Source of the DNA: Mesorhizobium onobrychidis
GTDB taxonomy: Bacteria > Pseudomonadota > Alphaproteobacteria > Rhizobiales > Rhizobiaceae
Length of the DNA stretch: 64,000 bases
NCBI RefSeq assembly: GCF_024707545.1
Contig: NZ_CP062229.1
Coordinates: 1,855,501 to 1,919,500 of the forward strand
Direction of reading: 5' to 3'
The position numbers and the translations under genes are program-made. The notes beneath the pieces were generated by a model. The model was not told the DNA's origin. It made no database searches and was given only the letters and a program-made list of their open reading frames with translations. Of this stretch, positions 31,966 to 52,181 are shown piece by piece (position 1 is the stretch's first letter; each line of letters begins with the position of its first letter).

Positions 31966-32117
31966 CGCCTAATCTCGGACGTTGATTGGCGGTCCCATGT
32001 CTTCCAGAAGCGGCCATCGCTGGTGTCAAAGCCTCGGGCGAGGTTGCGCCAACAGCCAACCTCAAGGATCCCATCTGATGATCAGCTATTCGATGCCCCA
32101 GATGCAGACGGCAAGGT

Positions 32118-34493
32118 TCATTTCTCCTCAGGCGTCGGATGACGGTCAGAGCGAAACTGGAACACGAAATAGGGTGGGATGCAGATGCCGCGCTGATCAT
32201 TCCGAGCAACCCAATTGTTGTCCGGCCGCTTCTGGCCGTAGTCGTGGGGATCGTAGGGTCGGTCGAGGACTTCACGAAAATATGGGAAGAAAGTTAATTT
32301 AAACCAACGTTTTATAAAGTCATAGTGGGTATACTTCATGGGGCGAGTGCAGATGTAGTCGTCACGACACGGATTAGCGATGTCGCACGCACGAATTCCG
32401 CTGTAGGACGTGAAATAGTCGAAGCACAGCTTGACATCGTAAGACTGATCTTCGGCAATCCGTGCTAGGCAGGCGTTGAAGCCGCTAGATGCAGTTAGGC
32501 CGCATGTGGCTTCTTGCGGCAGACCAATGCACTCGGACAAGCTCAACGCACCGCTAGGAAATCCACCTGTGCGGTGATCACGCCGAATATCGTAACATTT
32601 CGGATCTGGCGGCGTACTCTCACAGGGTTCCGCTTCCGCGGGAGCTTGCCCCTCATAATATTCTTGATGGTGACCATAGTAGCTATTTTCGGGCGGCGGG
32701 TTGGCCGGCAGGGCTGAGGCCGGAATCCGGGTGTCGCCATCCTTCACTGGTTCAGGCATCGTACGCTGGTACACGTCGAGTCCGAATGCCGCCGTAGTGA
32801 TATCTCCACGCTGCAGGGCATCACCAATCTCCTGCCTGCCATCTGGCACACAGGTGCCCACACCCGGATCATTCTCTGACCAGAATACCTGTTCGCATTT
32901 GAGACCAGGTTTGCATCCCCAATCTCGAGCACTTTTGCTTCGAGCTTCCGGCATTAGGCACGTCCCGCCCCATCCACCGATGAAGGCGGTTGACTTGAAT
33001 TCCTGGCTGAACCTTGCCTCGGGGCGCGCGCTGTAACCTGTTGCCAGTTCGTCAGCCGGAATACGGCCGTCCTTGCTCTGAGCAATACGTCGGACAATTT
33101 CAAGGCGTCGGGGTTGGTCGCCGTAGAAATGGGGTGACCCCGCCAGCAGGACCGCGTTTGAGCGGGGCGTGTCGAGCCGGTCGGCGCCCGGAAAATGGAA
33201 CCCGGCGATGGCCCTGGTCTGGTGACAACCCGTACAGGTGCTATCGTTAAGGCGGGATCGGAAATCTTCGACATTGCGAATGTACGAGAGCGGGATTCCG
33301 GCCGACTTGGCTCGATCGATCGCGTTGGAAATTTCCGCGTCTGAGATAACCTGCTGATCGTCTCGTATCGAATTCCAATATGGCTGGTTGGCGGAACGAT
33401 GCGACCCGCCAGGTGAAATGGAAACAGCTCGCCGCGATAGGATTCCCAGCGAGCTCGGAACATTCAACAGCCCCTTGTCGACTTCGGAGACGGTATAGGG
33501 CTGCTGCAAATAGGCGATGAGTTGGGCTCGGTTCGACCGTTTGGTCCGGCAAATCGCTTCGGAATCTGAGGGCGCGCAAAGCAATGAGTTGCGATCTACC
33601 TGATTTGGCAACTCTGTTGGCTCAAACCGGGAGGAGGCAGCGTTCCAGCGAAATACGCGAATTACATACGCCGCTTCGCTGCCGAAATCCTCGGCATAAA
33701 ATGCAGGCTTTCGATAAACCTGCATGTTCAACTCAAGACGTGCAATCCTGCCACCTACGAGTGTGGACAATGCACCAGATGCCGGGTCCACAAGATCCTT
33801 TGCTATCTCTTCGGGCGTTCGGTTCGGTGAGTGTGCGATGGCCGCAAGCCAGCGTTTGGCCGCCATCTGGCAAGTCACGTTGCCTGCCGAGGCAGGAAAC
33901 ACGATGTTCATGGTAATCGGCAGGCGCGACTCAGCGCGCCCCTTACGGATTGAATAGGAAAATCGATAGATAGCGCTTATCTCTCCGCAGATACTCTCTG
34001 TATGGTCCCGGAGGAATTGCCGATCCATCCGGTTGATCACTCCAACAAGCTCAATCCGCGACCCCGGATCAGTAAGCACGTCCTTGCTGATTTGAAACCC
34101 CGTGGCGCCTGCTTCGATGCCCAGCTCCTGAAGGTCAGACTCGATTGTTGAAACGATTAAGGCCGCTTCAGGAGCATGAAATGGATTGCTCCCTGGACGG
34201 TCCTTGGTCTGCAATGACTTGAACTGCCCGCGAATGAGAGTTTCAAAATTCAGAGGGCCATCGCAGGAAGAATCGACCTCCGACGGACTGGGACAATCGA
34301 GTTCGGAGACAACGCGAGGATCCGCAACAAAGGGGCCAACGAGTTCGCTCGAAACGTATCCTGTCGCTTGGTTTGTTTCCGCGGCAACCTTCCCATCCAT
34401 ACACGTCAGCCAAAGCGAAAGTGCCAATACAACAGGTAAGGCAGGCACACGCATTTTGGATTTCCATCCCTTGCGTAGTATCTGGTCAGACAC
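32118..34493 (-). CDS. Large exported cysteine-rich protein with one CxxCH haem motif, function unknown
   Basis: A 791-residue protein from a GTG start, or 778 from the ATG at 34454. A signal peptide (RVPALPVVLALSLWLTCMDG) is present. Near residue 420 is DSTCTGCHQTRAIAGFHFPG, a c-type haem attachment motif in a setting like di-haem or cytochrome-like secreted proteins. At least twenty other cysteines, many in the C-terminal third, suggest disulphides. I do not recognise the whole family. It is the last of four leftward genes in a region of lower GC, and is probably exported to the periplasm or beyond. Confidence 0.75.
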   Translation of the reverse strand: MSDQILRKGWKSKMRVPALPVVLALSLWLTCMDGKVAAETNQATGYVSSELVGPFVADPRVVSELDCPSPSEVDSSCDGPLNFETLIRGQFKSLQTKDRPGSNPFHAPEAALIVSTIESDLQELGIEAGATGFQISKDVLTDPGSRIELVGVINRMDRQFLRDHTESICGEISAIYRFSYSIRKGRAESRLPITMNIVFPASAGNVTCQMAAKRWLAAIAHSPNRTPEEIAKDLVDPASGALSTLVGGRIARLELNMQVYRKPAFYAEDFGSEAAYVIRVFRWNAASSRFEPTELPNQVDRNSLLCAPSDSEAICRTKRSNRAQLIAYLQQPYTVSEVDKGLLNVPSSLGILSRRAVSISPGGSHRSANQPYWNSIRDDQQVISDAEISNAIDRAKSAGIPLSYIRNVEDFRSRLNDSTCTGCHQTRAIAGFHFPGADRLDTPRSNAVLLAGSPHFYGDQPRRLEIVRRIAQSKDGRIPADELATGYSARPEARFSQEFKSTAFIGGWGGTCLMPEARSKSARDWGCKPGLKCEQVFWSENDPGVGTCVPDGRQEIGDALQRGDITTAAFGLDVYQRTMPEPVKDGDTRIPASALPANPPPENSYYGHHQEYYEGQAPAEAEPCESTPPDPKCYDIRRDHRTGGFPSGALSLSECIGLPQEATCGLTASSGFNACLARIAEDQSYDVKLCFDYFTSYSGIRACDIANPCRDDYICTRPMKYTHYDFIKRWFKLTFFPYFREVLDRPYDPHDYGQKRPDNNWVARNDQRGICIPPYFVFQFRSDRHPTPEEK

Positions 34494-34575
34494 GGGAACC
34501 CCCCCACTGTGTGATGAAGCAAATTAGTGTCGGGACAAGGCCTAGGTATGCAACTCAAAGACCATCCCGTCCGGG

Positions 34576-35409
34576 TTATTGCACAAGCTGACATGTGGCG
34601 TTTAGTGTACGCTCCTTGGAACGGATAAATGCCATATAGGGCGGAAGAAAAACCTCTTCGCCGTTCATAGGGAACCTGATCTCCCAGTGAAGATGAAATG
34701 TCGTCCAATATCCTTCACTTTTATTGTAATCATCATACATATAACCAAGAATCTTTCCCTTGTTGACGGAGTCGCCAAGTTTTACCTGTATTGTTTTCAT
34801 GTTGATATGCATGTAACGGTAAAGGCGACCCATCGATACTAAGTCGACTGAAAACGTTCCAATAGTGGTAATAACTCCGTCTTGCACGGCCTGCACCGCC
34901 ACAAGATCAGCAATTTTGGGATCTTCGCCGTTATTCAAAATCCTCTCCTGAGCAATCCTCATGAGAAGGCAGTCGTCTCGAGTTCCGGCCTTGATGTCGA
35001 GCCCCGCATGCGTGGGACCGGGTTTGCAACCTATGGCCCACCTGTCTTTTCCAATACGCAACTCGCAATAGTTGTCCCTATCAGGACCAGAAAAATTGGA
35101 CGCATCACATTCATCGCCCGGCGTATTATAGCCGCCTGGATTGTATACCTGGGACTGAGCGATACCTCTTGCTCCAGGGATCGGATTGAGTCCGTGCGGC
35201 TCGCCCCAGTCGAGCTCATTTAGCTTGGTCCCGTCTCCCAACCTCTCGTCAGACGGCTTTCCCGTGTCAGGGATCAGATTGCCGGGTGCGTAATACCAGC
35301 AAGCATGCTTCGTCGCCGAGGCAACGTCCGTTGAAAGAGGAATTGTCGCCGTTGTTAACAGCACCAGTGAAAGCGCTGCGGCCAACGGCAATTCGTTCCT
35401 GCTCGTCAT
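34576..35409 (-). CDS. Exported M23 (LytM)-type peptidase-like protein
   Basis: A 277-residue protein with a signal peptide (ELPLAAALSLVLLTTATIP). The C-terminal half has the M23 zinc motifs: THAGLDI supplies H-x3-D, YRYMHINMKTIQVKLGDSVN is the usual strand after it, and FHLHWEI supplies the HxH. It should cleave peptidoglycan cross-bridges or act as a regulator of such an enzyme if catalysis is lost. The start at 35409 overlaps the upstream stop by four bases (ATGA). Six or more cysteines suggest an oxidising compartment. Confidence 0.75.
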   Translation of the reverse strand: MTSRNELPLAAALSLVLLTTATIPLSTDVASATKHACWYYAPGNLIPDTGKPSDERLGDGTKLNELDWGEPHGLNPIPGARGIAQSQVYNPGGYNTPGDECDASNFSGPDRDNYCELRIGKDRWAIGCKPGPTHAGLDIKAGTRDDCLLMRIAQERILNNGEDPKIADLVAVQAVQDGVITTIGTFSVDLVSMGRLYRYMHINMKTIQVKLGDSVNKGKILGYMYDDYNKSEGYWTTFHLHWEIRFPMNGEEVFLPPYMAFIRSKERTLNATCQLVQ

Positions 35410-36068
35410 CTGACTGGTCCGATCGCCACCAGACTCTTGACGAGGGATAGGAGTGTACTTTCGTCTACACATGATTCCTGCGCGTCCCACATTGCCTCTC
35501 TACAGATTGTCTCACACGCGTAGGATGCCCCGTACCTCATAAACGTCGCTATGTGCCCACCGAGACTGTTTCCGTGTATCTTGGGCTCGGTCTCCTTTCC
35601 CAGTGCCTCGACGGTATAGCCTTCCGTCAGCAATGTCTTGCTGTATCCGCGGCAAACGAAATCAAACTCCTTGCCTTTGAAAACAGCCGCAAAACCGCTG
35701 TCAGTAGGGATGTACTCGAATTGGGCTCCCAGGCTCCCCACTTCTTCTCCATCCTGTAATGAATTTGCGTATCTCGAAAACAAATCCGCTGGCACCAAAA
35801 CCGGCACTTGCGACTTGTCAATTTCCTTAAGTACAGGTGCAAGCAGCAACTCAGCTGGGCCGCCGTCGAATAGCGTGCTGCGCCTCTGTTGAAGGTCCGC
35901 GTCCGTCGCAAAATCCGGCCAATCGATCTTGAGATCGTGGAGCGTTTGGTAGTCGGCACGAGGGTGATAAAAGTCGCTCGCAATAATGAGTAGCAGAAGC
36001 GCCAATATCGACGCTCGCAGCGAGATCCTCGATGATCTTACCCATCTTTTTTCTACGATGTTCTTCAT
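35406..36068 (-). CDS. Membrane-anchored or exported protein of unknown function
   Basis: A 220-residue protein from the ATG at 36068, or 235 from 36113. One N-terminal helix (ISLRASILALLLLIIASDFY) is followed by about 180 predicted periplasmic residues with the segments VPVLVPADLFSRYANSL, GFAAVFKGKEFDFVCRGY and CETICREAMWDAQESCVDES. A GNSLGGH string recalls a hydrolase elbow, but the surrounding sequence does not look like an alpha/beta hydrolase. It lies between the cyclase-receptor gene and the M23-like gene, with which it overlaps by four bases. Confidence 0.65.
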   Translation of the reverse strand: MKNIVEKRWVRSSRISLRASILALLLLIIASDFYHPRADYQTLHDLKIDWPDFATDADLQQRRSTLFDGGPAELLLAPVLKEIDKSQVPVLVPADLFSRYANSLQDGEEVGSLGAQFEYIPTDSGFAAVFKGKEFDFVCRGYSKTLLTEGYTVEALGKETEPKIHGNSLGGHIATFMRYGASYACETICREAMWDAQESCVDESTLLSLVKSLVAIGPVR

Positions 36069-36130
36069 TGCAGGACTGCCCAGTACACAATGAGACATTG
36101 CATGCGCTCGCATAGATCACCTCATTGACG

Positions 36131-38590
36131 TCAATCTATACCTCTAACCAACCTGTTATCTGTCCCAATCTTGTACCGGGCCAGGGGAATGAAGACTTCC
36201 TGTCTGTTGTGAAGAAAGGTGGTATTTACGATCTTTCGCTGCCTGGGAGGAGTACGCCTAAGGTGTTCGGCAACCAGGCGACCATTTACATATCCCAGAC
36301 AGGAATTGTTTACGGCTTCTTGTATAGCATCCAAAACGATGCTCGTCGCGTCATACGCGTAGGCGGCCACAACATCATAATCAAGGTTGGGAGGCTTCTT
36401 ACTGTCGTTGTCATACTCGACCTTGAAATCTGCCATCTGCGTGGCATATCCTTCTTCTGATACAACGTCGGAAACGACATGCACTTTATCAGCATAGGGA
36501 AAGCCGGCTTCGGCGATTTTCTTGTTGTAGGTCCCAGTCAGATAGATGTCGTTCGTGACCCCTCTTTTGTGCAGGTTCGCAATTATGTAGACGATGTCGT
36601 CCGTGTATCCGAAGATCGCGATCGGTCTGCCAGCATCGTTGAATACGCGCTGGACCGCCTCTTCCATCGAACGTTTGTCACCCCTCGTGTATCTGATGGT
36701 CGTCGTCTCAAGCGCCGTTTCGGGCATATGCCTGATGGCCACCGAAGCTTGTTGCATGCCGTAGCTCTCAGGCTCGTCCGCTGAGGAACCCAAAGCCTTC
36801 CATTCGTGAATGATATACGGGCTCAGGTCTCGCTTATTGCCGACCATCCAATCTACCAGCGCCTCGACCCTTGCAGCATCGGACATTGAAACGCGGAAGA
36901 AATAGTCGGCCACCCCTTCTTGCGTAAGGTATGCGGCCGATGCGTTCGCCGTAATGACGGGCGTCTTATGCACGTTGCCCCACTTTTTCGCATAGTATGC
37001 CAATTCCGAAGTCATTGGTCCCACAACTGCAACGACGTTGGAGGCGCGGAATTCGTTCAGGGCCTCTTCAACAGCTTCCCGTGTCCCCTTGTAGTCCCTC
37101 AGGAGAACGTTCGGTTCGAATGTATACCGCTCGCTGCTTTTAGCATGATCAACAGAACGTTGGATCGCCCATTTTGATAGCGCGCCTGAGTCCTTCTCGA
37201 ACCACGCCAATGCCCCGATATCCACGTCGTTCGGTGGCGTGGCGACCACTCTCAGGCAGCGGCAAATGATATTGTTACTGTTGAAACTGAAGTCGTTCGC
37301 CAGGAATTGTGCTATTCCCCCGGCAAGCAATAGCGTAATTCCCACAAAAGTCCCGAGCGCGACCTTAAGCGGTGCGCCGAGCCACCAGAAATATGCGGGA
37401 AAATCGATCTTTCGGTCGCTATCTGGAGGTTGAACGATTTCTGAATCGTAAAAGAATGGCGCCCAGAATGTCTTGACGAATTTCTTGGTCAGGAGCTGGT
37501 TGTATTGGACGGGGTGAAAACGGTCTTTTACCCTCGGCGAATGAAATCCGAATACGCCTGTAGCTCCGAAGCGCCAATTGAACGACCGAACGGCGAGCGG
37601 CCAGGCATCACGCGTCGCACATTCGTTCAAGACCAATCCCTTGATTTGAGAACTCACTTGATCCCAGTTGAACTTGGGATGCACGACTGATCTGGAAAGC
37701 AGCAGATTATCGATCGCGAGGTGAGGGTTCTCTTGCAATATCTTCGTGACGGCAGATGTCGCGTAGCCGTGTGCGAGAATTGACAGCTTGTACGCACTTT
37801 CCGGATGAGTTGCGCGAACCGCCGATATTACCTGACGGATTTCCCCGAGCTGCTTGCTTGGTGATAGTCCCGGAATTAGGAATTTCAGTCTACCGATGAA
37901 GTTGATGCTGGTCGATTGAATGTCGGCAGTTCCCTCGCCGCGTAACTCCTCTGGTATCCACGTCTGCCACTCGGCCTGCGATCGAGAACCGTGAAAGATT
38001 AGAATTATATCATGCAGCGCTTTCCGTCGCTGTGCGCCAAGAGACTCAACCGGGGTGATGAAAGCGCGCGCTTTATCGTTCAACAATATCGAATAAGTGT
38101 GCATAGGTCGCGCGATATTCTTGAGTTCAAGCCGTCCCATATCCTCGACGTCAAGGGCCAATTTGTCCGATACTTGATCATAGGCCGATTGTGAAAGACA
38201 AATACCGCCGGGCGTTGCCACACTCTCCATCCGCGCAGCCAGATTCACGCCGTCGCCGTATATGTCGTCAGGCTCGATCATTACATCGCCGATATTGATT
38301 CCGATGCGAAACTGAATTTGATCCTGTTCTTGTTTGCTCTCGTTCAGTTGCCGCATGTGCATTTGTATTTCGACGGCAAATATCACGGCGTCAACCACGG
38401 AGGGAAATTCCATCAGTTGACCGTCGCCAATAAATTTTATGATGCGGCCGCGATACTGAGACGTCTTGGGAGCTATCAGTTCCGAGAAAATTTCCTTCAA
38501 CAACTTGTGAGTGCCGACCTCATCGGTCCCCATGAGCTTGGAATAGCCAACAACATCGGAAAAGAGCACAGCTGCTAGTCGACGTTCCAT
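36131..38590 (-). CDS. Predicted adenylate cyclase fused to hydrolase-like, transmembrane and periplasmic receptor domains
   Basis: An 819-residue protein starting MERRLAAVLFSDVVGYSKLM, with AGAGAAG as Shine-Dalgarno. Residues 1-185 are a class III cyclase with all six functional positions: metal Asp12 and Asp56, base-selecting Lys52 and Asp109 (the adenine pair) and Asn116 and Arg120. Residues about 195-370 look like an alpha/beta hydrolase, but the nucleophile elbow reads LAHGYAT without a serine. One helix at about 405-430 (KVALGTFVGITLLLAGGIAQ) is followed by a type I periplasmic binding fold (about 440-815; AVVGPMTSELAYYAKKW, DYDVVAAYAYDATSIVLDAI). The order, cyclase first and receptor last, is the reverse of usual receptor cyclases. 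Ligand and output are unknown. Confidence 0.85.
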   Translation of the reverse strand: MERRLAAVLFSDVVGYSKLMGTDEVGTHKLLKEIFSELIAPKTSQYRGRIIKFIGDGQLMEFPSVVDAVIFAVEIQMHMRQLNESKQEQDQIQFRIGINIGDVMIEPDDIYGDGVNLAARMESVATPGGICLSQSAYDQVSDKLALDVEDMGRLELKNIARPMHTYSILLNDKARAFITPVESLGAQRRKALHDIILIFHGSRSQAEWQTWIPEELRGEGTADIQSTSINFIGRLKFLIPGLSPSKQLGEIRQVISAVRATHPESAYKLSILAHGYATSAVTKILQENPHLAIDNLLLSRSVVHPKFNWDQVSSQIKGLVLNECATRDAWPLAVRSFNWRFGATGVFGFHSPRVKDRFHPVQYNQLLTKKFVKTFWAPFFYDSEIVQPPDSDRKIDFPAYFWWLGAPLKVALGTFVGITLLLAGGIAQFLANDFSFNSNNIICRCLRVVATPPNDVDIGALAWFEKDSGALSKWAIQRSVDHAKSSERYTFEPNVLLRDYKGTREAVEEALNEFRASNVVAVVGPMTSELAYYAKKWGNVHKTPVITANASAAYLTQEGVADYFFRVSMSDAARVEALVDWMVGNKRDLSPYIIHEWKALGSSADEPESYGMQQASVAIRHMPETALETTTIRYTRGDKRSMEEAVQRVFNDAGRPIAIFGYTDDIVYIIANLHKRGVTNDIYLTGTYNKKIAEAGFPYADKVHVVSDVVSEEGYATQMADFKVEYDNDSKKPPNLDYDVVAAYAYDATSIVLDAIQEAVNNSCLGYVNGRLVAEHLRRTPPRQRKIVNTTFLHNRQEVFIPLARYKIGTDNRLVRGID

Positions 38591-39125
38591 AGTTGCTTCT
38601 CTCAGACCATGATGACGACGCTCTTGGTCATGGAACAATAGCACACTAAGAACGTGGACTCATAAAGCGCGCGCGGATTTTGGATGGCAGCGAGTTTTGT
38701 CCTCGAGAATCGCAGCAGCGACGTGATGCATCACTGGGCGCGTTTGTCCGACGTGGCGTCACTGGGCGCCGTGGTCCGGCGTGATGGCGAGCTGAGCGGT
38801 AGCCGGCCGCTATCGATCACCGCATGATTTTTCTAGCAGGACCGTCCTCGGCTGCGGCAGCACTTCGATCTGAGTGGCTTTCCTAGAGGCCGGTGGCGTT
38901 TGGTGGCGCACGCTGGTTCTGCTGCCGATGACCGCTTTGAGGTCGACAGCCGAACGACGGCTTACTGAGTTTTCCGGCCAGAACCGGACAGGCGGCAAAC
39001 GGCCCCAAGGCTGCCAGTCAGCAGCGCGCATTTTGCAGCCAAGTGGAATCACTTGGCTTCGCAGAAATGCGGCTAAGATAAATAGATGGAGCGGGATGCC
39101 CAGTTCAATTTGAACGTATCCCGCT
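38591..39125. other. Intergenic region, no gene seen
   Basis: About 535 bp between the cyclase-receptor gene and the LacI regulator. Short open frames occur on both strands but show no recognisable protein or ribosome binding site. The right end is a palindromic mosaic element (39033-39128). The rest could be decayed mobile or coding sequence; I cannot identify it. Confidence 0.5.
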
Positions 39126-40282: not shown

Positions 40283-40550
40283 TCACTTGCCATCGCATAG
40301 CGGTTGGTGACAGGTATCCTGCACGAGCGACGCTCCATTCGACGCAAAGTCGTTGGGACGTCGGCAAGGGATTGCCTGCGGAGCAGGATTTTGCCGGATT
40401 TCGTTAATTGCAACCGTCATTTTTTGCGGTGCAACCTACCTTGCTGCGTGCAATGGAAGGCAATTGCACGGGCAGATTTGTTCGCAGCTCGAAAAAATGT
40501 TGAACCGCTGCTATTCGGGGTTGCGCGCCTCCCGCAATTGCCTTATCGAA

Positions 40551-40570
40551 AATCTGTAACGTTTCAGATT
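40551..40570. promoter_or_regulatory. LacI-type operator, proximal copy (AATCTGTAACGTTTCAGATT)
   Basis: A 20-bp near-perfect palindrome (one mismatched pair) ending 15 bases before the start codon of the binding-protein gene, where it would block initiation or elongation. It matches the distal site at 40264-40282. Confidence 0.7.
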
Positions 40571-40585
40571 CTGGGAGGAGCCGAA

Positions 40586-41824
40586 ATGCGATACCAATTC
40601 ATGACCGCTGCGTTGGCGGTGACAACCGCGCTGTCATTCGCCGGCCCGGCGGCAGCGACGGATCTGGAAGTCACCCATTGGTGGACTTCGGGCGGCGAGG
40701 CGGCGGCGGTCGCCGAATTCGCCAAGGCGTTCGACGCGACAGGTAATCATTGGGTCGACGGCGCTATCGCCGGCTCCGGCGGCACGGCGCGGCCGATCAT
40801 GATCAGCCGCATCACTGGCGGCGACCCCATGGGCGCCACCCAGTTCAACCACGGCCGGCAAGCGGAAGAATTGGTGCAGGCCGGTCTGATGCGCGATTTG
40901 ACCGATCTCGCCACCAGGGACAAGTGGGCGGAAATCGTACAGCCGAAGAGCCTGCTCGACGGCTGTACCCTCGACGGCAAGATCTATTGCGTGCCGGTCA
41001 ACATTCACTCCTGGCAGTGGCTGTGGCTGTCGAACGCGGCCTTCGAAAAGGCCGGTGTGCCGGTGCCGAAGAATTGGAATGAATATGTCGCAGCCGCCCC
41101 TGCGCTGGAGAAGGCAGGCATCATACCGCTCGCGGTCGGCGGGCAGCCCTGGCAATCCTCGGGCGCCTTCGACGTACTGCTTACGGCGGTCGGCGGCACG
41201 GACGCTTTCTTGAAGGTCTATCGCGACAAGGACGCGGAATTCGCCGCCGGACCCGAGGTCGCCAAGGTGTTCAAGGCCGCGGACGATGCCCGCAAGATGG
41301 CGAAGAACACCAATGTGCAGGACTGGAACCAGGCCACCAATCTCGTCATCTCCGGCAAGGCCGGCGGCCAGATCATGGGCGACTGGGCGCAGGGCGAGTT
41401 CCAGGTTGCCGGGCAGACCGCCGGCAAGGACTATACGTGCCTTCCCGGCCTTGGCCTGAACGAGGTCATCGCCACCGGCGGCGATGCCTTCTACTTCCCG
41501 CTGCTGCAGGACGCTGAAAAGTCCAAGGCGCAGGAAGCGCTGGCCGAAACGCTGCTCGATCCCAAGACGCAGGTCGCCTTCAACCTCAAGAAGGGCTCGC
41601 TGCCGGTGCGCGGCGATATCGACCTCAAGGCGGCGAACGACTGCATGAAGAAAGGGCTCGACATCCTGGCCAAGGGCAGCGTCATGCCCTGGACGGACCA
41701 GTTGCTGTCGCAGGACACCCAAAAGCAGAAAGAGGACCTTTTCTCCGAGTTCTTCGCCAAGCCGGACATGACCGTGGAAGAGGCGCAAAAGCGCTTCGCC
41801 GACATCGTCGCCTCAGCGGACTGA
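40586..41824 (+). CDS. Sugar ABC transporter substrate-binding protein (MalE/UgpB-like)
   Basis: A 412-residue periplasmic protein. The signal peptide MRYQFMTAALAVTTALSFAG ends at AAA before TDLEVTHWWTSGGEAAAVAE, the classic start of cluster D sugar binders. GDPMGATQFNHGRQAEELVQ and GGDAFYFPLLQDAEKSKAQE are further family segments. The start at 40586 is fixed by the signal peptide and GGGAGGAG. Products likely bind an oligosaccharide or glycoside. It heads a rightward operon with two permeases, an ATPase, an isomerase and an oxidoreductase. Confidence 0.93.
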   Translation: MRYQFMTAALAVTTALSFAGPAAATDLEVTHWWTSGGEAAAVAEFAKAFDATGNHWVDGAIAGSGGTARPIMISRITGGDPMGATQFNHGRQAEELVQAGLMRDLTDLATRDKWAEIVQPKSLLDGCTLDGKIYCVPVNIHSWQWLWLSNAAFEKAGVPVPKNWNEYVAAAPALEKAGIIPLAVGGQPWQSSGAFDVLLTAVGGTDAFLKVYRDKDAEFAAGPEVAKVFKAADDARKMAKNTNVQDWNQATNLVISGKAGGQIMGDWAQGEFQVAGQTAGKDYTCLPGLGLNEVIATGGDAFYFPLLQDAEKSKAQEALAETLLDPKTQVAFNLKKGSLPVRGDIDLKAANDCMKKGLDILAKGSVMPWTDQLLSQDTQKQKEDLFSEFFAKPDMTVEEAQKRFADIVASAD

Positions 41825-44902: not shown

Positions 44903-45703
44903 ATGAACTGGTCATTCCAACTTTACAGCGCCCGCAATTTCCAACCTTGGGAAGGGGTGCTCAAGATGCTGGGCGAGCTCGGCTACGCGCAAGTCGAAGG
45001 GTTCGGCGGCGTCTATGACGACCCCAAGGCATTTCGTGCCGAACTCGACAAGAACGGGCTCGCCATGCCGACCGGCCATTTCTCGATCGACGCGCTCGAG
45101 AACGATTTCGACTGCGTGCGCAAAATCGCCGACACGCTCGGCATCACTCTGCTCATCTGCCCCTATCTGGTCGCCGAGAGCAGGCCGACCGACGTGGCCG
45201 GCTGGCGCGGCTTCGGCGCACGCCTGGCCAAGGTCGGCGAGACGGCTGAGAAAGCCGGCTACGGCTTTGCCTGGCACAATCATGACTTCGAGTTCAAGAA
45301 GCTTGCCGACGGCTCGGTGCCGCAAGACCATATCTTGGCGGCAGCGCCCAACATCGGCTGGGAGATGGACGTCGCCTGGGTGGTGCGCGGCGGTGACGAT
45401 CCGCTGCCCTGGATCGAGAAGTATGGCAAACGCATCGCCGCCGTCCATGTCAAGGACATCGCCAGGCCAGGCGAGGGCCTCGACGAGGACGGCTGGTCGG
45501 ATGTCGGCCACGGCACGATCGACTGGGCCGGCCTCGACGAGGACGGCTGGTCGGATGTCGGCCACGGCACGATCGACTGGGCCGGCCTGATCAAGGCGCT
45601 GCGCGCCAAGAGCGCCGCCAAGTACTTCGTCATGGAACAGGACAACCCCAACGATATCGAGCGCTTCGCCCGCCGCTCGATCGCAGCCGCCAAGACCTAT
45701 TAG
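44903..45703 (+). CDS. Sugar phosphate isomerase/epimerase with an 18-residue tandem duplication
   Basis: A 266-residue TIM barrel (MNWSFQLYSARNFQPWEG; YGFAWHNHDFEFKKLADG; IGWEMDVAWVVRGGDDP; IAAVHVKDIARPGEG). Near the C terminus LDEDGWSDVGHGTIDWAG is present twice in a row, encoded by a perfect 54-bp duplication. The repeat covers a conserved loop with the Asp-Val-Gly-His-Gly motif close to the active-site mouth, so the duplicated copy may disturb or reshape catalysis. It lies 54 bases after the ATPase gene and 12 before the oxidoreductase gene. Confidence 0.88.
   Translation: MNWSFQLYSARNFQPWEGVLKMLGELGYAQVEGFGGVYDDPKAFRAELDKNGLAMPTGHFSIDALENDFDCVRKIADTLGITLLICPYLVAESRPTDVAGWRGFGARLAKVGETAEKAGYGFAWHNHDFEFKKLADGSVPQDHILAAAPNIGWEMDVAWVVRGGDDPLPWIEKYGKRIAAVHVKDIARPGEGLDEDGWSDVGHGTIDWAGLDEDGWSDVGHGTIDWAGLIKALRAKSAAKYFVMEQDNPNDIERFARRSIAAAKTY
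45479..45586 (+). repeat. Perfect 54-bp in-frame tandem duplication
   Basis: Units at 45479-45532 and 45533-45586 are identical, so the event is recent or was introduced during sequencing or assembly. It adds 18 residues and keeps the reading frame. Confidence 0.95.
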
Positions 45704-51981: not shown

Positions 51982-52181
51982 GTGTAATCTTCGTGCCCTT
52001 GAATCGCCACGTTCGGAGACACAGATAAACGCCATCGGCATTTTTCGCCGAGGTCCGGAGCAAGGCCCGTCCCCCGCCTATCCCGGACACTTGCGGCAGC
52101 CTATCCCCCCTCTCCGGGCTGCCGCATCGTTTCGAGTAAAGGCCGCCGTGGTTCCCCCTCCACCACGGCGGCATTTTTTTT
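51982..52181 (+). ncRNA. Putative trans-acting small RNA beside polA (alpha-r7/Smr7C-like)
   Basis: A predicted transcript of about 200 bases with two stable stem-loops: TGCGGCAGCC (52092) pairs with GGCTGCCGCA (52117), and GCCGCCGTGGT pairs with ACCACGGCGGC before a T-run. Both loops are C-rich with CCCTC-like anti-Shine-Dalgarno sequence, a trait of alphaproteobacterial regulatory RNAs. From memory, Sinorhizobium Smr7C (family alpha-r7) also lies next to polA; membership here is an inference. No start codon with a ribosome binding site is seen in it. Confidence 0.6.
52142..52181 (+). terminator. Rho-independent terminator of the putative small RNA
   Basis: Perfect 11-bp arms GCCGCCGTGGT and ACCACGGCGGC with a 9-base C-rich loop, followed by A and eight T. 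Confidence 0.88.

Follow-up and report, generated by a model that had tools for sequence, protein, structure and literature searches.

An effector-first class III cyclase gene of Mesorhizobium onobrychidis with a hydrolase-like middle domain and a C-terminal binding-protein-type domain

The natriuretic peptide receptors of animals, which are receptor guanylyl cyclases, have one membrane helix. In these receptors, the passage of a signal from the single helix via a pseudoenzyme to the cyclase is, to our knowledge, unsettled. Passages of PMC1592074 describe the pseudoenzyme as an apparently inactive kinase domain. The mycobacterial protein LipJ/Rv1900c carries an alpha/beta hydrolase fused to a class III cyclase (NCBIfam NF058673, E 5.6e-11; PDB 1ybt), and cyclase-helix-TolB-like/TPR proteins, also of class III, are common in Alphaproteobacteria. 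LipJ/Rv1900c is soluble. The Sinorhizobium CHASE2 receptor cyclases CyaD1, CyaD2, and CyaK are sensor-first, and many rhizobial cyclases have no known input. Excerpts of PMC13001267 and PMC4222275 report that CyaD1, CyaD2, and CyaK feed the Crp-type regulator Clr, and an excerpt of the latter source credits S. meliloti with 26 class III cyclases "of overall unknown biological functions." PMC5431781 describes CdgH of Vibrio cholerae as a binding-protein-type periplasmic sensor fused to a cyclase.

Here we describe a gene of Mesorhizobium onobrychidis that lies in a 64-kb stretch of DNA (the window, as analyzed at its full length). Like the animal receptor guanylyl cyclases, its product has an ANF_receptor-type sensor, a helix, a probably dead enzyme, and a class III cyclase, but the chain order is reversed and the dead enzyme would be a hydrolase where theirs is a kinase; we regard the likeness as one of working plan, not of descent. 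In LipJ/Rv1900c the cyclase comes last (positions 292-445 of a 449-position profile), and only this cyclase matches our protein. CdgH has two N-terminal PBPb-type sensors and a diguanylate cyclase, whereas our protein has one C-terminal sensor and a class III cyclase. CyaD1, CyaD2, and CyaK are likewise receptor cyclases of a rhizobium, but their sensor is CHASE2, not a binding protein. The protein, hereafter the receptor, would make it possible to test directly what counts in such signal transfer: the order of the chain, which kind of enzyme is dead, or the geometry of the dimer alone. It also suggests a ligand class to try for rhizobial cyclases without a known input.

Domain order and rarity of the receptor

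The receptor open reading frame begins with an ATG preceded by a plausible ribosome site. Its parts are as follows.

36131..38590, minus strand: whole gene, 819 aa, cyclase / putative pseudohydrolase / membrane helix / periplasmic-binding-type receptor
38081..38590, minus strand: class III nucleotide cyclase domain, residues 1-170 (Pfam Guanylate_cyc, PDB 3mr7, residues)
37421..38020, minus strand: alpha/beta-hydrolase-fold domain, residues about 191-390, probably inactive (275 is Gly, 363 is Tyr, Asp328 kept)
37277..37372, minus strand: single transmembrane helix, residues about 407-438 (hydrophobicity; helix in model)
36134..37228, minus strand: type I periplasmic-binding-protein (Peripla_BP_6 / ANF_receptor) domain, residues about 455-819 (Pfam, alignment to metabotropic glutamate receptor 5 [mGluR5])

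A sequence-only reading of this DNA had proposed a cyclase, a hydrolase-like domain, a single helix, and a Peripla_BP_6 domain in that order. Pfam, hydrophobicity, and fold bear this out, so that the observation is confirmed as real, while the interpretation attached to it is supported in part; the modules, their order, and the residue states given below are established by sequence or computation. In particular, a Pfam search of the kind proposed in that reading found both the cyclase and the binding-protein families above Pfam cutoffs. The middle third had no Pfam match in a scan of the whole protein. A full-length structure prediction (pLDDT 39.9, from three rows) was discarded as a guide to domain arrangement. 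A promoter scan returned one sigma-70-like site, on the strand opposite to the receptor gene, versus 5.2 expected.

The search for other proteins of the same order, also proposed in that reading, found the layout to be rare. Among the best 120 of 2589 matches to the whole chain in 5.8 billion proteins, three carried both cyclase and binding-protein domains: the receptor itself (P0001) and two others, P0002 and P0003. Residues 185-819 retrieved the same three; both searches scored only candidates sharing most words, and remote versions may be missed. P0002 and P0003 are 62-68% identical to P0001 and come from contigs of 3.5 and 3.3 kb that are probably environmental. A search with the residue 190-410 region returned P0001, P0002, P0124, and P0125 and missed P0003, which reflects the limits of the tool. 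No second full-length member was found among the matches listed for the whole protein in 61 related genomes, nor among those shown for the C-terminal 634 residues in 397 genomes of the order and 398 of the phylum, with at most three candidates scored per genome. The other matches in the order and phylum covered only part of the query; they were hydrolases standing alone, binding proteins of ordinary size, or stretches resembling binding proteins within longer open reading frames. Two of the last group were read (L185 and L187) and look like lipoproteins of another kind. Scans of genome contigs and viral contigs returned no relatives of the C-terminal 634 residues, and a full-text literature search, judged by titles and displayed abstracts, found no published description of the architecture.

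Identity to P0001 in P0002 and P0003, respectively, is 76 and 74% in the cyclase, 66 and 39% in the hydrolase domain, 56 and 36% in the helix region, and 68 and 72% in the binding domain. This pattern fits what would be expected of a receptor that works through its two ends and tolerates change in the connector, with the qualification that the connector of P0002 is nearly as conserved as its sensor and the contrast between ends and middle comes mainly from P0003. Alternatively, with three sequences to compare, the middle of P0003 may have been replaced by recombination.

Cyclase subfamily and hydrolase-like connector

The claim of an N-terminal class III cyclase with six functional positions held up in both the profile match and the residue readout. 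Guanylate_cyc matches residues 7-168 (E 1.7e-18, 67.3 bits against a curated cutoff of 21.9), the nearest solved cyclase is PDB 3mr7 (E 2e-36), and D12, K52, D56, D109, N116, and R120 are all present. From the class III literature, we take D12 and D56 to be the metal aspartates, K52 and D109 the base pair, and N116 and R120 the transition-state pair. P0002 has Arg at the position of Lys52, and its product or activity may differ.

A cyclase of this class could also belong to a phage defense system of the Pycsar type, and the receptor does match the PADLOC PycC models weakly (best E 8.8e-7). Hydrolase relatives, moreover, lie near a SAVED-domain gene (L025) or match a defense candidate (P0122, PDC-M60C, E 3.1e-11). 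The general class III profile is nevertheless far better, no recognizable effector adjoins the gene, the downstream genes have no PADLOC match at E 0.1, and a periplasmic sensor does not fit such a system. We consider a defense role extremely improbable.

The sequence-only reading had taken sensor first and cyclase last to be the norm for receptor cyclases. That description suits other branches but not the receptor's own subfamily. Besides the three fusions, we considered 117 cyclase homologs, the best listed of 2589. The cyclase lies within 60 residues of the start in 115 of these 117, and in 94 of them a helix, predicted by a hydrophobicity threshold with no trained predictor, follows within 80 residues. 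The receptor helix, in contrast, begins about 235-240 residues after the cyclase. Of 28 host-genome loci with a cyclase match that were examined for layout, L003 and L004 clearly run from cyclase to helix to long tail and L057 does so weakly, whereas the more distant L058, L059, L060, and L070 begin with helices and end with the cyclase. Since cyclase first with a helix behind it is the majority arrangement of the listed subfamily, the unusual points of the receptor are its sensor type and its connector; its order is ordinary there.

Within the subfamily, the closest described relatives are the TolB/TPR-type cyclases; in the cyclase, the listed homologs are 45-62% identical to the receptor. 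They too have an N-terminal cyclase followed by one helix, as do L003 and L004. Many listed homologs are labeled with TPR and named, for example, "TolB-like protein/class 3 adenylate cyclase," while the receptor has no TolB or TPR Pfam match and has Peripla_BP_6 instead. It differs from that type in having a 200-aa, probably dead hydrolase after the cyclase and before the helix, and in ending with a type I binding-protein domain.

The middle domain has the alpha/beta hydrolase fold, as the sequence-only term "hydrolase-like module" implied, and the comparison sharpens that term to a probably dead hydrolase that forms a unit with the helix and occurs without a cyclase in other phyla. Of the residues of an active hydrolase, the receptor keeps only Asp328; the nucleophile position (275) is Gly and the His position (363) is Tyr. 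Across the three fusions, position 275 is Gly, Asp, and Gly, and position 363 is Tyr, His, and His. All 13 stand-alone relatives read (P0121-P0125, L027-L030, L034, L174, L175, and L188, the L029 match having one internal stop) have the nucleophile Ser, versus none of the three fusions; these 13 were retrieved by searches free of any serine-motif pattern. Because the nucleophile is lost in every fusion and kept in every stand-alone relative read, we conclude that the fusion domain is probably a pseudoenzyme.

A genome scan with five stand-alone domains gave 48 loci in Pseudomonadota, Planctomycetota, Bacteroidota, Bacillota, and others; this set was gathered partly through a pattern containing the serine motif, and its serines are left out of the evidence above. 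A hydrolase open reading frame was recovered at 47 of the 48 loci; 27 of these have a predicted membrane helix beginning at most ~45 residues past the hydrolase end, and 20 have none. At none of the 48 loci did an open reading frame of 100 aa or more match the receptor's cyclase or binding domain at E 1e-4. Scanning of ten relatives revealed tails after the helix above cutoff for Glyco_hydro_108 (L123, E 2.8e-17), the caspase-like Peptidase_C14 (L117), and HEAT (L129); an SH3_3 tail in L114 was below cutoff only. The best single relative, L174, spans the hydrolase and helix of the receptor jointly (E 9.4e-43). Stand-alone proteins such as L027, L123, L174, and P0125 carry the homologous unit but keep the Ser nucleophile and have other tails. 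These alignments suggest that hydrolase and helix are a traveling unit of a widespread family (L113-L139, L174) with variable tails, and the cyclase gene would be an example of acquiring a ready-made hydrolase-helix unit together with a transporter-type sensor.

Two further observations concern this family. P0122 (L024:5551-6705) has the same hydrolase behind an N-terminal part that resembles a response-regulator receiver, and it is the protein that matches PADLOC candidate PDC-M60C. In several loci (e.g., L144, L145, and L149-L151), the hydrolase is offset to a similar degree, by about 175 residues.

The loss of the nucleophile from a retained fold could also mean that the domain has become a second sensor, located in the cytoplasm. 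The plant gibberellin and strigolactone/karrikin receptors are hydrolase folds turned into ligand pockets, and beyond the residue states the argument is by analogy with these hormone receptors. The receptor would then integrate outside and inside signals; in the fullest form of this proposal, the dead hydrolase doubles as an intracellular ligand pocket, an amino-acid-like signal outside and a metabolite inside are computed jointly, and the plan of the animal receptor guanylyl cyclases has been reached independently and in reverse. We consider both the second sensor and this fuller form quite improbable. No folded part is less conserved than the connector (39% in P0003), and P0002 and P0003 retain His at 363. 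The top PDB sequence match of the hydrolase profile was the strigolactone receptor D14 (E 0.0072), which we rejected and read as chance: the alignment covers D14 residues 9-69, at the N-terminal HGFG motif rather than the nucleophile elbow, and the catalytic serine of D14 presumably lies outside that stretch. Being out of register, the match lowers the odds of a second sensor.

Sensor, membrane topology, and proposed mechanism

The proposed Peripla_BP_6-like domain at the C terminus is supported by two profile matches over cutoff, Peripla_BP_6 at residues 497-766 (E 5e-13, 49.9 bits against 31.7) and ANF_receptor at residues 480-580 (E 6.5e-8, 32.4 bits against 25.4). Among solved sequences, plant glutamate receptor 3.4 (E 1.4e-5) is nearest, then mGluR5 (E 0.0017) and, after it, a Leu/Ile/Val-binding protein homolog (E 0.041). 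S528, S551, and D571 stand opposite a Ser, a Thr, and an Asp of mGluR5 at equal spacing and are invariant in the three fusions; we take these mGluR5 residues to be contacts to the amino acid backbone. The position matching mGluR1 Asp318 seems to be Tyr in the receptor (Y688). An amino-acid-like ligand, as the sequence-only reading had it, is plausible to the extent that the site resembles those of amino acid receptors. In a control of 19 ordinary binding proteins of the order, however, position 528 was Ser or Thr in 19, position 571 was Asp in 17, and position 551 was Ser in 5; since two of the three states are common among ordinary binding proteins and the third occurs in 5 of the 19, the site names no ligand.

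Both hydrophobicity and the structural model place one hydrophobic helix between the middle and C-terminal parts and none at the N terminus. If the ATP-using cyclase end is inside, the binding domain would be outside, a topology argued by exclusion. The single-pass layout agrees with the earlier proposal that the two ends lie on opposite sides of the membrane, while the charges flanking the helix are split. K/R counts lean toward an N-inside orientation in all three fusions (3, 4, and 3 versus 2, 3, and 2), but net charge leans the opposite way in two of three (0, 1, and 3 versus 1, 2, and 2), and with these trends in conflict the charges leave the topology undecided. The peptidoglycan-hydrolase-type tail of L123 agrees by analogy with an outside location for the tail after the helix; the caspase-like tail of L117 and the HEAT tail of L129 lend it no support. 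C443 and C764 are invariant in the three fusions and might form a disulfide, which would be a sign of a periplasmic site.

From these features we infer a membrane topology, a dimer, a ligand class, cAMP as the product, and the direction of the signal. The receptor is likely a homodimeric, single-pass, effector-first protein in which outer binding domains control inner cyclases via the helix and the dead hydrolase. The class III cyclase mechanism needs a dimer, and by that mechanism two receptor chains would pair. The periplasmic C-terminal domain would close on a small, probably amino-acid-like ligand, as the conserved S528, S551, and D571 suggest. The closure motion would pass through the single helix and the catalytically dead alpha/beta-hydrolase domain, the latter acting as a connector or dimer clamp at the inner membrane face. 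The motion would alter the contact between the two N-terminal cyclase domains, which would then convert ATP to cAMP, and Crp/Clr-type regulators would read out the cAMP. The host genome has 14 matches over cutoff to the cNMP-binding domain.

Gene neighborhood

The receptor gene is the first of four same-strand genes that lie between gnd and a lacI-type gene. The insert and the three genes downstream of the receptor are as follows.

31966..39125, no strand assigned: low-GC insert carrying the four genes (genes 0.50-0.55 GC versus 0.64 in gnd and lacI)
35406..36113, minus strand: 235-aa orphan gene, its ATG 17 bases past the receptor stop, with a hydrophobic stretch near the N terminus
34576..35409, minus strand: M23-family peptidase with a hydrophobic N terminus (Pfam Peptidase_M23, 3e-8)
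32118..34493, minus strand: 791-aa protein with no Pfam match; it has a CxxCH motif and homologs in rhizobial genomes and plasmids

The peptidase ATG at 35409 (an inferred start; the frame is open from 35490) overlaps the 235-aa gene by 4 bases. The 235-aa orphan has a match in 1 of 297 genomes of the order, its own, and the 791-aa protein in 23 of 297, its own included. We read the plasmid neighborhoods of 791-aa homologs in three of the 8 matched plasmid records; beside them lie GH25 lysozymes and a glucosaminidase (L171), an N-acetylmuramidase-domain protein (L172), and a peptidoglycan-binding protein (L173).

We compared the site in 29 other loci of the genus, taken as the best from 92 other genomes that match lacI. 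In 16, gnd lies at most about 250 bases from the lacI-type gene, in 1 the distance is ~1.25 kb, and in 12 gnd is absent within 1.5 kb. Longer stretches of those 12 loci (L101-L112) have different DNA at the site; in L102 and L107 it holds cyclase-first genes of a different type, and none of the 12 matches the receptor's hydrolase or binding domain at E 1e-5. Low GC content and the varying gnd-lacI interval point to local acquisition of the cassette at a variable insertion site. No convincing direct repeats were found at the cassette ends. L105 and L111 have partial second copies of the lacI 3' end at the gnd-lacI site.

The same low GC and variable site are what would be seen if the receptor were a decaying fusion gene from a mobile cassette, without a role; the lack of a second full-length member in the genomes searched (61 relatives, among the matches listed, 397 of the order, and 398 of the phylum) and K52R in P0002 point the same way. 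We give this reading little credence, against it being the 819 open codons, the intact cyclase residues, and the 68-76% conservation of both ends across three divergent proteins.

A somewhat less improbable but still unlikely alternative is that an ABC importer or some other periplasmic partner uses the binding domain, so that the cyclase reports contact with this partner rather than free ligand. Peripla_BP_6, the sensor's family, is that of the binding proteins of branched-chain amino acid importers. Precedents are given in part of PMC9602780, where separate solute-binding proteins stimulate chemoreceptors, sensor kinases, diguanylate cyclases, and Ser/Thr kinases. The orphan 17 bases downstream could be such a partner, by comparison with the ToxR/ToxS and VtrA/VtrC pairs (PMC9214523). 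The cassette, however, contains no importer genes, and the neighboring importer, which has matches on plasmids, already has its own binding protein at 40304-41824. Direct ligand sensing by a homodimeric receptor is the preferred reading.

Elsewhere in the window, the only Rfam match is the ar7 alphaproteobacterial sRNA at 52033-52178, plus strand (RF02342, 122.5 bits). An isomerase-like open reading frame at 44903-45703, plus strand, contains an in-frame tandem repeat in which GLDEDGWSDVGHGTIDWA occurs twice.
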